The translations under genes and the position numbers were made by a program. From Pirellulaceae bacterium (GTDB taxonomy: Bacteria > Planctomycetota > Planctomycetia > Pirellulales > Pirellulaceae), in assembly GCA_022448645.1 (NCBI GenBank), contig JAKVBZ010000109.1, forward strand, positions 1-14,781: a stretch of DNA of 14,781 nucleotides, in the 5' to 3' direction. Shown in pieces: positions 2,042-14,781 of this stretch (its first letter is position 1; every line of letters starts with the position of its first letter). The notes beneath the pieces are model-generated. The model saw nothing but the letters and a program-made list of their open reading frames with translations. It had not been told where the DNA came from and did no database searches.

Positions 2042-3574
2042 ATGACATTGCGACATACACACACTGAGCTGGTGATCTCCGTTGTCTTGCTGGCGCTTCT
2101 TTGGTCGCCAACAACGTACGCCATCCCACATAAAACGGTCGTAGATGTTGATTCCAAGTCTCAACTGTTCATCGATCAAGAACTGGTTTATGAGGCGCGC
2201 GGGGTCAGCTTTACGCTGCATCCGGGAAAGAAAGCTTCTCGCGAACCGTTAGTCAAACCCGATCGGCCCTGCGAGGGCTGGCACCTACAGATGTATGGGT
2301 CGGTGATGTACGACGTGGACGAGAAACTTTTTAAGATGTGGTATCTTGGCTCTGCCAGTGATTACTTCTCTTACGAGACCACCTTTTATGCGACCAGCCG
2401 TGACGGAATTCACTGGGACAAGTCGCATGAAGGGACTATCTTGTCGAACAACGGCCAAGCTCATCATGCTGTCTCGAAGGCGCTCCTGGCCAGCGTCATG
2501 AAGGACAGGCATGATCCAGATCCGCAGCGGCGTTACAAGATGATTTGCTACGTCTACGATCGTGGCTATTGTGCGATGGTTTCTCCAGACGGAATGCACT
2601 GGAAAGACGCAGCACCCGGGACGATCGTGCCGATTTCTTACGTCGACGACGTCATCTGCGCCAGCTGGAGCGAAACACACCAGCAGTACGTGACGTTATT
2701 CAAACAAGCCATGCCCGTGATGGGCCGGCGTCGCCGATCGCTATGGCTGTCGGCCAGTCATGACTTTGTCCACTGGTCAAAACCCGCTCCGGCAATCTGG
2801 GCCGATCGACGCGACGACTATGGGACTCGTATCCGGGCCGCTCAGGTTCGTCCGCTACTAAATTACCCCGATAACCCGAACGTGATGCGGACCGAAGTCT
2901 ATGGGGCCGGCATGTACGCCGCAGAAAGTTGTCTGATTGCTTTTCCTTGGATGATCAGTATTACTACGAATGTGCCTAAGTTTGGCAACCACGAAGGTCC
3001 CTTGGAAGTACAACTGGCCGTTTCGCGTGATCTGGAGGAGTTCGAACGCCCGTTCCGAACTCCCGCTATCCGGCCTGGCAAGCCGGACGAATGGGACAGC
3101 GGTACCTTCAGCACGGCCTCCTATGCCTTTGACTACCAAGACGAAGTCTGGTTGTACTATTCTGCTGGTAACTACACTCACGGGGCACCCAGGTGGTGGG
3201 GAATCCAAGATGAAGACAAACCCGAACACCGCTCGGGCATTAACTTGGCAAAATGGCGAAAAGACCGTTTCGTATCAGCCGACGGACCTGTGACTGGCGC
3301 CATATTGACTACCGTACCAATTCAGTTTTCTGGGCGGCGACTGGAATTGAATGCCGAGGTCGCAGCTCAAGGAAAGATCGTGGTAGAACTACTTGACCTG
3401 TCTCTGAACAGAATCGCCGCCTGGCCCGCATCGGATCCAATCCAAGGAGACGACCTGCGGCATGTCGTCCAGTTTGGCGATCAGTTCGATGTATCATCTC
3501 TTGCCGGGCAGCCCCTGGTCCTCCGATTTCATCTATATGATGCGCAATTGTTTGCCTTTGCGTTTCGCCATTGA
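2042..3574 (+). CDS. Secreted five-bladed beta-propeller, glycosidase-like protein
   Basis: I chose the ATG at 2042 over one at 1928 because GGAG sits 8 bases before it and it opens directly into a signal peptide (MTLRHTHTEL then a hydrophobic core, cleavage near TYA-IP at residue 27). The protein has 510 residues. It carries repeated propeller-blade strings: YATSRDGIHW (116-125), MVSPDGMHW (179-187), SASHDFVHW (237-245) and LAVSRDLEEFER (325-336), plus KMWYLG (98-103). Such S-x-D-G-x-x-W strings are typical of GH32/GH43-like and sialidase-like planctomycete proteins. Residues from about 420 to the end (FSGRRLELNAEV through RFHLYDAQLF) look like a beta-sandwich, as in GH32-type C-terminal modules. 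A role in binding or cutting a polysaccharide outside the cytoplasm is inferred; I cannot assign catalytic acids or a substrate. The gene is followed at 139 bases by the SFPD-repeat gene on the same strand. Confidence 0.82.
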   Translation: MTLRHTHTELVISVVLLALLWSPTTYAIPHKTVVDVDSKSQLFIDQELVYEARGVSFTLHPGKKASREPLVKPDRPCEGWHLQMYGSVMYDVDEKLFKMWYLGSASDYFSYETTFYATSRDGIHWDKSHEGTILSNNGQAHHAVSKALLASVMKDRHDPDPQRRYKMICYVYDRGYCAMVSPDGMHWKDAAPGTIVPISYVDDVICASWSETHQQYVTLFKQAMPVMGRRRRSLWLSASHDFVHWSKPAPAIWADRRDDYGTRIRAAQVRPLLNYPDNPNVMRTEVYGAGMYAAESCLIAFPWMISITTNVPKFGNHEGPLEVQLAVSRDLEEFERPFRTPAIRPGKPDEWDSGTFSTASYAFDYQDEVWLYYSAGNYTHGAPRWWGIQDEDKPEHRSGINLAKWRKDRFVSADGPVTGAILTTVPIQFSGRRLELNAEVAAQGKIVVELLDLSLNRIAAWPASDPIQGDDLRHVVQFGDQFDVSSLAGQPLVLRFHLYDAQLFAFAFRH

Positions 3575-3712
3575 TGGCATCCTAGCTGCACCGACAATCC
3601 TAGTCCCCGCGCTGGCAGGGCCTAAAGTTGGTGGATGTGTACAGCCGGTCGGGATTTTGATGCTAAACTGATGACTTGCAGAAAACGTATTTTTCTACGG
3701 GAGAAAAAATCC

Positions 3713-4078
3713 ATGCGTAAATTGGTTTTGGCAGTTGTTCTGGGAACATGTTTTATTGGCTCTATTGCCCAGATAAACGTTTCGTTGGCTGATGAACCCA
3801 GCACCATGGCGATAGCACCCTCCGGCAATACTGCCAAGCTGAAAGTAAATGTCTCGAGGATCTACGGAAACATCATGTACGTCGATTCATTCCCCGACTA
3901 CAAGGTACAGGTCGTGAATTCTTTTCCTGACCTGAAGGTTCAGATCGTCAAATCATTTCCTGACAAACCAGGTAAATGGAAGATTGTCAATTCCTTTCCG
4001 GACTACAAGATTCAAATTGTCAACTCTTTTCCGGATTTCAAGATCCAGTACGTCAAATCGTTTCCTGGAGCACCTTAG
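3713..4078 (+). CDS. Small secreted SFPD-repeat protein, candidate 7(1) septoil knot domain
   Basis: This 121-residue protein starts at the ATG at 3713, with GGGAG 9 bases upstream, and opens with a signal peptide (MRKLVLAVVL, core to about 20, cleavage near LADE at 25-27). The mature part is almost all repeats. The motif S-F-P-D/G occurs at residues 59, 70, 81, 94, 105 and 116, giving spacings of 11, 11, 13, 11 and 11. Between motifs lie short beta-like strings (YKVQVVN, LKVQIVK, YKIQIVN, FKIQYVK); the central one carries a KPGKWK insertion. The serine codons differ across copies (TCA, TCT, TCA, TCC, TCT, TCG), so the repeats are conserved at protein level and are not a fresh DNA duplication. 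From memory, short SFPD-repeat proteins are placed in the 7(1) septoil knot family (Septknot); I could not check this. No enzyme residues are visible and the function is unknown. Confidence 0.85.
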   Translation: MRKLVLAVVLGTCFIGSIAQINVSLADEPSTMAIAPSGNTAKLKVNVSRIYGNIMYVDSFPDYKVQVVNSFPDLKVQIVKSFPDKPGKWKIVNSFPDYKIQIVNSFPDFKIQYVKSFPGAP

Positions 4079-4083
4079 GCGTG

Positions 4084-4109
4084 CCCCCCGAGGATGGTGG
4101 GTTTTTCTT
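4084..4109 (+). terminator. Probable intrinsic terminator after the SFPD-repeat gene
   Basis: Six C (4084-4089) can pair with GGTGGG (4096-4101) with one mismatch across a 6-base loop, followed directly by TTTTTCTT (4102-4109). It begins 6 bases after the stop codon and lies in the 35-base space between two convergent genes. On the minus strand no T-run follows the stem, so it would serve the plus-strand gene only. Confidence 0.45.
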
Positions 4110-4113
4110 CGAA

Positions 4114-5427
4114 CTACCAGTCCACGACAGATCCGTCATCCCTGTCGTAGCTGTGCGGGTATGGTTGCGGTGGCCCGACCTGGGCCTGCAGTTTGTCTTC
4201 GTCGATCTCGATACCTAACCCCGGTGCTTGCGGGATGGGCAGATAAGAATCTTGTTGCTTAAAAGGAACTTTGAGTAAATTTTCGTAAGTCCGCGCGCCT
4301 CCTTCCTGGATCAGGAAGTTCGGAATACTGGCCGCGATCTGGCAACTGGCGGCCAACGAGCAGGGCCCCTGCGGGTTGTGCGGAGCCAGAGGTACGTAGT
4401 AGGCCTCAGCCATCCCCGCAATGAGCCGCAGTTCGGTGATTCCTCCTGCGTAACATACGTCGGGTTGCAAAATGCTGGCCGCCTGCTTCTCCAGGATTTC
4501 GCGGAAACCCCACTTTGTAAAAATGCGCTCACCGGTCGCAATCGGGATGTGTGTCTTTCGAGCTAGTTCCGCCAACGCGTCCACATTCTGGCACGCAATC
4601 GGCTCTTCAAAAAAGAAGGGCTGGTACGGTTCCAACGCCTTGATGAGCAGCATGGCCGTCTGCGGTGAAGGGATACCGTGAAAATCAATCCCCACATCGA
4701 TCTCGCTGCCAAGGTGTTCCCTCAATTGCTTGAAGTTCTTGGCCAGGCGTTGCACGTAACCAGGGTTTTCGACATACCGGTGAGCGGTACGGCCATCGGC
4801 GTTCGCTCCCACCTTGATTGCGTTCACGGTTCCGTCTTCAGCTTCCCCTTTGCGTCCGTAGACACGAATCTTGTCACGGGTGGGGCCTCCGAGGAGTTCG
4901 TAAACGGGCATGCCGAGCGCCTTCCCTTTGATGTCCCAGAGAGCCATGTCGATACCACTCAGCACGGCCGTCAGCACAGGTCCTCCACGGTAAAAGGCGT
5001 GCCGATAAATGGCCTGCCAGTGGTGAACGACTTTTCGCGGGTCCTTTCCGAGCAGATACGGTTCCACCTGTTTTGCCCCCGCTGCACAGGTCAGGCTGCG
5101 ATCCTTCAGCATCTCGCCCCAGCCAACAAGGCCCACGTTCGTGGAGAGTTTAACAAACACCCAGCTGTTCTTAAGCACAAACGTTTCGAGTTTGGTGATC
5201 TTGATCGGTTCCCGGCGTGACACCACCGCGCGGCTAGTATTGTCGGCCTCAACAGCCTGCACCAGTCTTCCCAGTCCGATCGCTCCGCCACCGACGGCTG
5301 CTTGCATCAGGAATCGCCGCCGTGACGACTTCTTGGTTGATGTACCTTCCTCTCGCTTGGCGAGCCATTGGGTGGTAGCTCGATCGGCCAGCGGAAAGTG
5401 TAATTTTGCAACGTGTTCAGCAGGCAT
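4114..5427 (-). CDS. Galactonate dehydratase-like enolase-superfamily enzyme with Tat signal
   Basis: The 437-residue protein starts at an ATG (5427-5425) with AGGGA 8 bases upstream. A twin-arginine signal, S-R-R-R-F-L-M (35-41) followed by a hydrophobic segment, implies folded export. The rest is the enolase superfamily, mandelate-racemase subgroup: an N-terminal capping domain (about 75-190), then the TIM barrel. Compared from memory with E. coli DgoD, every key residue lies at a constant offset of 65: D248 and H250 (DFHG), E274 (EEP), E300 (GER), D323 (QPD), H350 (APHNPQGP) and E375 (IQE). These are the three metal ligands, the two acid/base histidines, and the Asp and Glu partners. The expected reaction is dehydration of a sugar acid to a 2-keto-3-deoxy acid. 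Residues 191-240 diverge from DgoD, so another aldonate is possible. Cytoplasmic DgoD lacks a Tat signal; exported homologues are known in Planctomycetes. Confidence 0.85.
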   Translation of the reverse strand: MPAEHVAKLHFPLADRATTQWLAKREEGTSTKKSSRRRFLMQAAVGGGAIGLGRLVQAVEADNTSRAVVSRREPIKITKLETFVLKNSWVFVKLSTNVGLVGWGEMLKDRSLTCAAGAKQVEPYLLGKDPRKVVHHWQAIYRHAFYRGGPVLTAVLSGIDMALWDIKGKALGMPVYELLGGPTRDKIRVYGRKGEAEDGTVNAIKVGANADGRTAHRYVENPGYVQRLAKNFKQLREHLGSEIDVGIDFHGIPSPQTAMLLIKALEPYQPFFFEEPIACQNVDALAELARKTHIPIATGERIFTKWGFREILEKQAASILQPDVCYAGGITELRLIAGMAEAYYVPLAPHNPQGPCSLAASCQIAASIPNFLIQEGGARTYENLLKVPFKQQDSYLPIPQAPGLGIEIDEDKLQAQVGPPQPYPHSYDRDDGSVVDW

Positions 5428-12676: not shown

Positions 12677-14781
12677 TCATGGGTAGGAAACTGACTCATA
12701 ATACGATTGCACGTGAATGTAGTTATACATCAGCTCCCGTCCGATTTCTCCGCCAGGTGTCGTGTCATCCGACCAGTCAGAAACGGTCAGCTTTGCGGTC
12801 GTGTCATTAGCTCGGAATAGATACCAATGATAGGTCATCCAGGCCTGGCGTTTGTTACCATCGTAAGGCGGATAACTCCCCCACGTGGGATTGGGGAAAA
12901 GTTTTGTGATCGTTCTTTCTGGGATCAGCGTCACACCATCCAGCCGAACCGAAACGGCATGCTTCGCCTTATTCGACATATCTTTAAAGTCGCTGGTCAT
13001 CATACGAAAGGAATACAGTTGGCCCGGTTGCAGGTCCTTGATTTTCTGTGAAAAACGATTCGCTCGAGCGGCACTTCTGACCGTGACCAGGGCGGTATCA
13101 CCGGGCGCTCCGTCATAGCGTGCCTGGAGACGGCCAAAACCGGGACTGGGAGCGCTGCGGATACTTTCGTTTTCTGCTTGATCCACCGTCCAGCCCGTCA
13201 ACCCCTCGACAAAGTCAGGGTTCACAAGATGCGGTAAGACATACGGCTCGCTGCTAGCTGGCTCGGTCCTGCCTTCGATTCCATAGTGACGGAACAGCTG
13301 CGCTCCCCAACGAATCATTTCCTCGTCCGCATAGCTTGAGTGATAAGTCATTAACCCGTAAGTACCCACAAAGGCCGGGTCGGTGACCACCAGGTGAAAC
13401 TGCATATCCAGATATTTCTTGTAGTTGACCCAAGGAGTGCTGTTGAGCAGATGGCCACCGGGAAGTGTAAAGTACGCTAAGCATACGGCGATGTGTTCCA
13501 GCGATTCTGGACACAGTTTGCGATAGTTTTGCGCATGTTTGACGAGCTCGTCGTGAAGGAATTCCCTTGCGGCCTGCGCGTCATCTTGGGTCGGCAGATA
13601 TCGTTTCCAGGCAAGGACCGCGCCCGTATCGCTGAGCGCCTGCACCAACTCTTGTCCATCGGGTCCACCGTAGAGTTGGTTGACATATGCATAAAACAAG
13701 CGATCCTCAAACGCTGGAGTCGCGTGGAGTTTTCGGACCGCATTGGCAAAAATGGCACAATTGGGTTCCGAGTTCATGAACTCGTCGGCCATGAGTCCAT
13801 GAGAAAGCGGATGGGTGTATCCGGGAGTCACCGAAATGTGATGGTAGGCATCCGCATAATCTCTAATGTCATTATCCTGAATGGCGCGGAGCACCGTCCA
13901 GGCGGCCAGCCATCGCCTGCCACTCGATTGCAACTTCCTGTAGGCGGGTGTATCCAGTCGGGTGGGATCGACGTTGAATGTGTTGACGTTTTTGAGGACA
14001 TGTTCCTCAAAGTATCCACCTACCTCGAGCGGGAACTCATGATAGAGCAATTCCGGTATGGCGCGGACAATGAGTTCCTGTGGTGTTCCGTCGATCTGGA
14101 GAAGATGGCGGCCTGCAGGGAGATGACGCATGACCTCGACCGGCTTTTCATCTTTCCTTGACACTAGCAATGGCTGATCGTCGGAATCAAGACTGATGTT
14201 CGTGTTGCCAGCCAGACGGAAGAAGCACCAGCCGTCCCGCGGGTTCATGAACTCTATTTCAGACGCGTCGCGAAGCTCTCGCGCTGCCGTGTTCATCAGC
14301 TCACAGGTCACGTTGTTAAGCCGCTGAATTCGCTGTTTGCCGCCAGGAAGCAACACGGCGACGGTTTCTGAAGCCACCATTTCGCGGCCACCACTGTCCT
14401 CGAACCAGGCACGCACATCATAGGCGCCCCATGGAAGTCGGTCGCTAGCAATATCCATTTCGATGCTCTTGGCAGGTGCGGTGGATTTCTTGGAAATCAC
14501 GACCTCACCGGTTTTCCGAGATGTCAAAGTGATTGCCAAGTTTCCGGTTTGGAGATGAACCGCCGGGAGCTGCGTGTGGACACGGATGGAAATATCCCGC
14601 GGCTGTGCCGATAAGACGTGCTCTGGCCAGGCGTCATCGACTTCGAGTGTCAACGCTTTGTACACCCAAGTTAATTGTTCACGAACTAGCGTGGTCGAAA
14701 GGATCGCCCCTGTTTCAGTATCGGTGACGACCACCTTCTTGGTCTGCGGCTTGATGCGGATCGCTCGGCGGTCAGCAAGCG
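12677..14781 (-). CDS. Large carbohydrate-binding protein of unknown activity, C-terminal 700 residues (runs off the right edge)
   Basis: The frame is still open at 14781, and no start with a ribosome site appears near the GTG at 14734, so the gene begins outside the window. The visible part starts with a beta-rich region (to about 14300) resembling Ig-like or macroglobulin-like strands (SIRVHTQLP, WGAYDVRAWFED). A second small domain follows (to about 14000). Then comes a long alpha-helical domain, about 13990-13230, with RRWLAAWTVLRA, GLMADEFMNSEPN and DEEMIRWGAQLFRHYGIEG. From about 13222 to the end (NPDFVEGLTGWTV, LQPGQLYSFRM, VRLDGV) lies a beta-sandwich with the look of a CBM4/9 or galactose-binding-like carbohydrate module. 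I do not recognise a catalytic family; lyase-like or hydrolase-like helical domains occur in such architectures. The size and binding module suggest an extracytoplasmic polysaccharide-acting protein. Transcription ends at the hairpin at 12634-12672. Confidence 0.8.
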   Translation of the reverse strand, partial: LADRRAIRIKPQTKKVVVTDTETGAILSTTLVREQLTWVYKALTLEVDDAWPEHVLSAQPRDISIRVHTQLPAVHLQTGNLAITLTSRKTGEVVISKKSTAPAKSIEMDIASDRLPWGAYDVRAWFEDSGGREMVASETVAVLLPGGKQRIQRLNNVTCELMNTAARELRDASEIEFMNPRDGWCFFRLAGNTNISLDSDDQPLLVSRKDEKPVEVMRHLPAGRHLLQIDGTPQELIVRAIPELLYHEFPLEVGGYFEEHVLKNVNTFNVDPTRLDTPAYRKLQSSGRRWLAAWTVLRAIQDNDIRDYADAYHHISVTPGYTHPLSHGLMADEFMNSEPNCAIFANAVRKLHATPAFEDRLFYAYVNQLYGGPDGQELVQALSDTGAVLAWKRYLPTQDDAQAAREFLHDELVKHAQNYRKLCPESLEHIAVCLAYFTLPGGHLLNSTPWVNYKKYLDMQFHLVVTDPAFVGTYGLMTYHSSYADEEMIRWGAQLFRHYGIEGRTEPASSEPYVLPHLVNPDFVEGLTGWTVDQAENESIRSAPSPGFGRLQARYDGAPGDTALVTVRSAARANRFSQKIKDLQPGQLYSFRMMTSDFKDMSNKAKHAVSVRLDGVTLIPERTITKLFPNPTWGSYPPYDGNKRQAWMTYHWYLFRANDTTAKLTVSDWSDDTTPGGEIGRELMYNYIHVQSYYESVSYP

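Follow-up and report, generated by a model that had tools for sequence, protein, structure and literature searches.

The septoil-knot gene of the window

The window, the whole stretch of 14,781 nucleotides that was analysed (contig JAKVBZ010000109.1 of the Pirellulaceae assembly GCA_022448645.1), encodes at 3713-4078 on the forward strand a protein of the septoil-knot family (PF19647 / PHROG 6462), read as a single 121-aa frame in which a leader is followed by a repeat domain. An alternative in-frame ATG at 3635 would give a product of 147 aa, and the ATG at 3713 is preferred as the start because it fits the leader. By eye this leader consists of MRK, a hydrophobic stretch and SLA, with cleavage placed before DE. 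A promoter and terminator scan of 3500-4200 found nothing. The parts of the gene are as follows.

3713..4078, + strand: septoil-knot family coding sequence, 121 aa (phrog_6462 at E 2.5e-25, structure model, sequence matches to the solved chain)
3713..3790, + strand: probable signal peptide, residues 1-26 (cleavage after SLA by eye; hydrophobic leader, best 12-residue mean 2.88)
3791..3847, + strand: weakly constrained linker ahead of the domain, residues 27-45 (residues 1-45 taken together have dN > dS against locus L001)
3848..4075, + strand: knot domain, residues 46-121 (N-terminal element VNVSRIYG, six strands, six SFP(D/G) turns, central expanded turn SFPDKPGKW)
3699..3709, + strand: purine-rich stretch GGGAGAAAAAA, a possible ribosome-binding site just 5' of the ATG (by eye)

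Family membership and predicted fold

A protein search returned 1,184 relatives at E 0.001, some of them named 7(1) septoil knot domain-containing protein, and all 120 listed, the window protein included, carry a precomputed PF19647.5 label. The solved chain 8IWA (Q9PR55, UU089.1) matches the window protein with phmmer at E 3.6e-12 and with profiles at E 1.2e-24 and 3.8e-30, while the phage protein family PHROG 6462 matches residues 40-121 at E 2.5e-25, its profile phrog_6462 also matching 141 of 142 aligned relatives. Weighing against this assignment, the older local model PF19647.4 (DUF6150) gave no match to the window protein or in six genomes holding relatives, which may reflect the model version or HMMER's filters, and a scan of NCBIfam likewise named no family for the protein. 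The Pfam check proposed in the sequence-only reading was thus answered positively by the PF19647.5 label and negatively by the PF19647.4 scan. Its family claim holds on that label, on the matches to Q9PR55/8IWA and on a confident structure model that matches Q9PR55 chains, and nothing places the protein outside PF19647 (DUF6150; UniRef name 7(1) septoil knot domain-containing protein). PHROG 6462 matches the window protein, but the window copy has no adjoining phage genes.

The AlphaFold model, built on 142 diverse rows, has a predicted local distance difference test score (pLDDT) of 94.5, a run on 35 close relatives (pLDDT 41.5) having been discarded. Its strands lie at model residues 13-17, 24-28, 35-39, 49-52, 59-63 and 70-74, model residue 1 being residue 40 of the protein. 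Chains of Q9PR55 were the sole matches in the PDB at E 0.001 or better, with no match in BFVD at that threshold; VIA-align covered the 58 chains ranked highest by Foldseek and does not itself exclude other folds. Judged from the model, the window protein is predicted to share the fold of Q9PR55, which answers the structure prediction that the sequence-only reading had called for.

Q9PR55 (UU089.1) of Ureaplasma is a solved 7_1 knot (PDB 8IWA, 8IWB, 8IWC, 8JRM, 8W68). Counted by eye it has five turns spaced 11-13-13-11, a spacing also found in P0144 and P0190, and lacks the C-terminal SFPG turn; its close relatives are mostly leaderless, whereas the window protein carries a leader and shows six turns at a spacing of 11-11-13-11-11. 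A published study reports 7_1 for Q9PR55 and a predicted 5_1, a simpler knot, for its homologue P73136, given there as 48% identical to it (Brems et al., 2022; PMC9278004). With P73136 predicted to be 5_1, belonging to the family does not by itself settle which knot a member forms. The window copy is accordingly best described as predicted to be knotted, with 7_1 and 5_1 both possible.

The window gene is new and the family is known, such that the core finding is ordinary to those familiar with the family, while the phage settings and the cysteine pair described below may be parts that a specialist does not expect. The terms DUF6150, PF19647 and septoil knot domain occurred in none of the open-licence papers searched, and we know of no function for this family, the holder of the most complex solved protein knot.

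Repeat anatomy and selection

The SFP[DG] turns begin at residues 59, 70, 81, 94, 105 and 116, giving the spacing 11-11-13-11-11. Among 20,000 shuffles of the mature part, one such motif arose in 150, two in 1 and more than two in none, so the six turns and their symmetric spacing stand as first described. This spacing is a family-wide pattern and not peculiar to the window gene: under a strict F/Y turn motif, and with duplicates kept, it ends 232 of 343 sequences (243 proteins including the window's own and 100 locus reading frames), alone in 195 and after one extra upstream match in 37. The six-turn layout is common in leader-bearing relatives.

Same-residue codon pairs among the first five repeats use different codons in 35 of 65 cases. 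Matching repeats of the window protein and of L001, the nearest genome locus, share 8-10 of 10 positions, and different repeats of the window protein share 4-8 of 10; the repeats therefore keep their own identity, indicating that the copies are old rather than a recent expansion. Between the same two loci the repeat domain (residues 46-121) has a non-synonymous rate (dN) of 0.058 and a synonymous rate (dS) of 0.477, a ratio of 0.12, against 0.33 and 0.21, a ratio above 1, for residues 1-45. The domain is under purifying selection, and this difference, together with the codon divergence, upholds the earlier view that selection has long acted on the repeat as protein.

Several relatives depart from the layout or the motif. 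Close relatives with fewer turns are P0032 and P0099, which have four, and P0233, which has five; these may be natural deletions or assembly collapse, and if natural, the loss should alter the knot. The short Leptospira forms P0132, P0133, P0134, P0136 and P0137 keep the leader, have lost the repeat frame and look like decayed copies. In a Burkholderia plasmid copy (L082:5896-6216) TIAPD-like turns replace SFPD with the spacing unchanged, and the cysteine pair described below is seen by eye; the gene table of that record lists almost nothing in this region.

Export and a paired cysteine

A hydrophobic leader was found in 88 of 101 open reading frames (ORFs; 100 loci and the window), a sample in which the choice of start favours leaders, which leans to the query, for which the 80 best of 365 genome loci were taken, and which includes 19 Pseudomonas and 10 near-alike Leptospira-type loci. 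The other 13 ORFs start at the domain, 11 by script (L003, L023, L051, L062, L070, L076, L077, L079, L092, L094, L098) and two by eye (L036, L073), the script having picked a start earlier than the domain start in these two. A secreted copy is thus not unusual in the family, and the window protein is probably exported, judging by its leader as seen by eye and by its relatives, in keeping with what had been claimed for it.

Three branches can be told apart by eye: that of the window (VDVSKIYG start), a cysteine branch (CTFKGKKLYG start, ..CGKW at the centre) and a short Ureaplasma-like branch that is mostly leaderless. A cysteine in the central turn occurs in 58 of 260 parsed sequences, all 58 of which also have an N-terminal cysteine and were scored as having a leader, these leader counts being rough (the window protein was mis-scored as leaderless) and 83 of the 343 sequences being unparsed. 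The central cysteine alone was found in 0 of 260 and the N-terminal one alone in 17 of 260, several of these 17 being rows in which it falls in the leader. Among distinct sequences 42 have both, none the central and 16 the N-terminal cysteine alone (Fisher p about 2e-29, not corrected for relatedness). The pair marks one branch and was seen only in forms scored as exported, and the window copy lacks it. Such strict pairing predicts that a disulphide links the N-terminal element with the central expanded turn, which would bring the two into contact. This predicted disulphide would also help to explain why the middle of the repeat is two residues longer.

Distribution and descent

The septoil-knot gene is rare and patchy. 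It was found in 6 of 294 genomes in the phylum of G002 (a Mariniblastus), 6 of 240 in that of G003 (a verrucomicrobial genome), 9 of 247 in that of G004 (a Chitinophaga; two matches with stop codons) and 17 of 249 in the genus of G005 (a Pseudomonas protegens; one match with a stop codon), counts that include the centre genome, whose groups are named from the loci that yielded them, and in which short leaderless forms may be missed, the sensitivity of the survey being shown by the centre genomes alone. The 14 control genomes had none. Three plasmid records match and none of 50,697 phage records does. A tree built from 91 domains over 78 columns has poor resolution, with 53 of 87 inner branches open; it needs 21 changes of phylum (least possible 8) and at least 10 of leader over 90 rows. 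These many changes on such a tree suggest transfer and do not prove it.

Relatives in viral contigs

Three scans of viral contigs gave 9, 9 and 17 contigs holding relatives, 31 of them distinct and four recurring by name; a fourth, with the Ureaplasma-like subgroup as query, gave none. These contigs are likely prophages. Six settings account for 26 of the 31, in two modes, in line with the neighbouring genes or as a separate unit, and often beside tail-hub or lysis genes.

The largest setting is that of 18 Leptospira-type contigs, nine assigned by their hub cluster (L083-L091) and nine by eye (L110, L112-L119). In these, and in an annotated Leptospira plasmid (L081), the knot gene stands in line, preceded by a 120-aa gene (phrog_5564 in L081) and followed by baseplate J; at L081:5911-6225 it begins 3 bases past the preceding gene and overlaps the next by 4 bases. 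The Leptospira-type knot genes carry a leader and hold a fixed slot in a tail operon directly before baseplate J. At L099:5926-6279 and L100:5667-5960 the gene lies on the opposite strand between two genes labelled baseplate hub, the hub family phrog_4930 being common to L099, L100 and L081; since two of the six settings share this family, the phages are not all unrelated. At L098:5769-6017 it is again on the opposite strand and adjoins a tail gene, past which lies a tape measure gene. In L095 it adjoins a minor tail gene, not far from terminase and endolysin genes (L093 and L096 share these neighbours), in L097 spanin and endolysin genes, and in L092 it is near terminase genes. No clear phage gene was seen nearby in L108, L109, L111 and L122. 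The knot genes at L122:452-778 and L111:265-591 lie, by eye, near type I restriction (HsdM-like) genes, or near macro-domain and ADP-ribosylglycohydrolase-like genes.

A moron-type placement, that of an independent accessory gene, fits several of these relatives; the Leptospira-type copies are in line with tail genes, and the placement does not fit the window copy. The presence of relatives inside several kinds of bacterial viruses is a hint at the function of the family.

Neighbours of the cellular copies

Many phyla contain cellular copies, for most of which no phage-like gene was noted. The neighbours of the window gene are an upstream 548-aa protein, which matched neither Pfam at E 0.01 nor NCBIfam at E 0.1, an enolase-superfamily protein and a Meth_synt_2 protein. 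The 80 genome loci less 23 near-duplicates yielded 135 crude ORFs from 46 of 57 loci; with one of 775 aa dropped, the 134 scanned showed no Pfam family in more than 4 and no defence family in more than 2. Clustering with blastp recovered, at varying distances, sulfatase-like proteins at 6 loci, GFO/IDH/MocA-like ones at 5 planctomycete loci and DUF1501-like ones at 4, and in 4 verrucomicrobial loci an aldolase stood at position +1 or +2; ORF calls at G+C-rich loci include spurious frames. By the same clustering no family keeps one fixed place across phyla, and no window gene falls in a cluster common to three or more independent loci. Pseudomonas loci retain part of their setting: in 11 of the 19, one and the same binding-protein-like gene stands at +1 or +2. 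The L001 genome gave no synteny because it lacks a close counterpart of the enolase-superfamily protein of the window (31% at best). The suggestion that the gene lies beside a polysaccharide-type protein finds no support, the upstream protein having no family match and the window genes no place in shared clusters, and the comparison of homologues that had been proposed shows no partner fixed beside the gene across phyla.

Possible role of the knot protein

The window protein is likely an exported septoil-knot member, small, knotted and probably very stable, that acts by itself in the envelope or extracellularly, in a family carried partly by temperate phages. The leader would carry the domain across the membrane, after which it would fold into a small knotted beta-protein displaying several near-identical SFPD turns, the knot probably making it very stable, and it would work there with no fixed partner. 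The calculations establish the family and the anatomy of the repeat, a fold match to Q9PR55, the purifying selection, the want of a fixed partner gene across phyla and the phage carriage of relatives; location, stability and action are inferred. A weaker suggestion is that it could be a lysogenic-conversion-type or defensive envelope factor, hindering for example further phage infection or an attacking enzyme; a role of this exclusion or protective kind is put forward tentatively, on the ground that several kinds of phage carry relatives as single genes, most of them for exported proteins. Doubtful as a whole is the fuller picture of protease-proof exported knot factors, spread partly by temperate phages and altering the envelope of the lysogen (for example by phage exclusion), with the disulphide of one branch locking the knot and the window copy a settled chromosomal descendant.

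The position of the relative just ahead of the baseplate J gene (L081, L083-L091, L110, L112-L119), or adjoining a hub or tail gene (L098, L099, L100), would also suit an origin as a structural or assembly protein of phages, serving the tail baseplate or phage release, with the cellular copies as domesticated remnants put to a new use. We regard this as unlikely, as the Leptospira-type copies too have a Sec-type leader, unusual for a tail part, the gene in L098-L100 is on the strand opposite the tail genes, that in L092, L093 and L095-L097 lies by terminase, minor tail or lysis genes, and the cellular copies are spread over many phyla, mostly away from any noted phage-like gene. Improbable too is a secreted adhesin or substrate-binding module tied to polysaccharide use, in which the SFPD turns would bind a repeated ligand. 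Probable export, the repeated identical turns and the one GH123_N-like and one enolase-superfamily protein also encoded in the window would agree with such a module, but no neighbour is fixed across phyla, the upstream protein matches no family, relatives in viral contigs, Ureaplasma and Fusobacterium have no single common life style, and the turn residues may be purely structural. A simple unknotted beta-solenoid or other repeat protein, for which the knot label would be nominal, is very improbable; the failure of PF19647.4 on the window protein and on the six genomes speaks for it, and the confident model has Q9PR55 chains as its PDB matches. For the family as a whole, the vicinity of tail and lysis genes in viral contigs, the usual export and the strictly paired cysteines give three experimental handles on the purpose of so complex a knot.

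Other frames in the window

At 12680-14734 on the reverse strand the window encodes a 685-aa protein with no Pfam match at E 0.01. A small frame at 1500-1811, also on the reverse strand, contains the stretch DGDQDVDITDF, which we take to be dockerin-like, followed by a segment that is presumably PEP-like.
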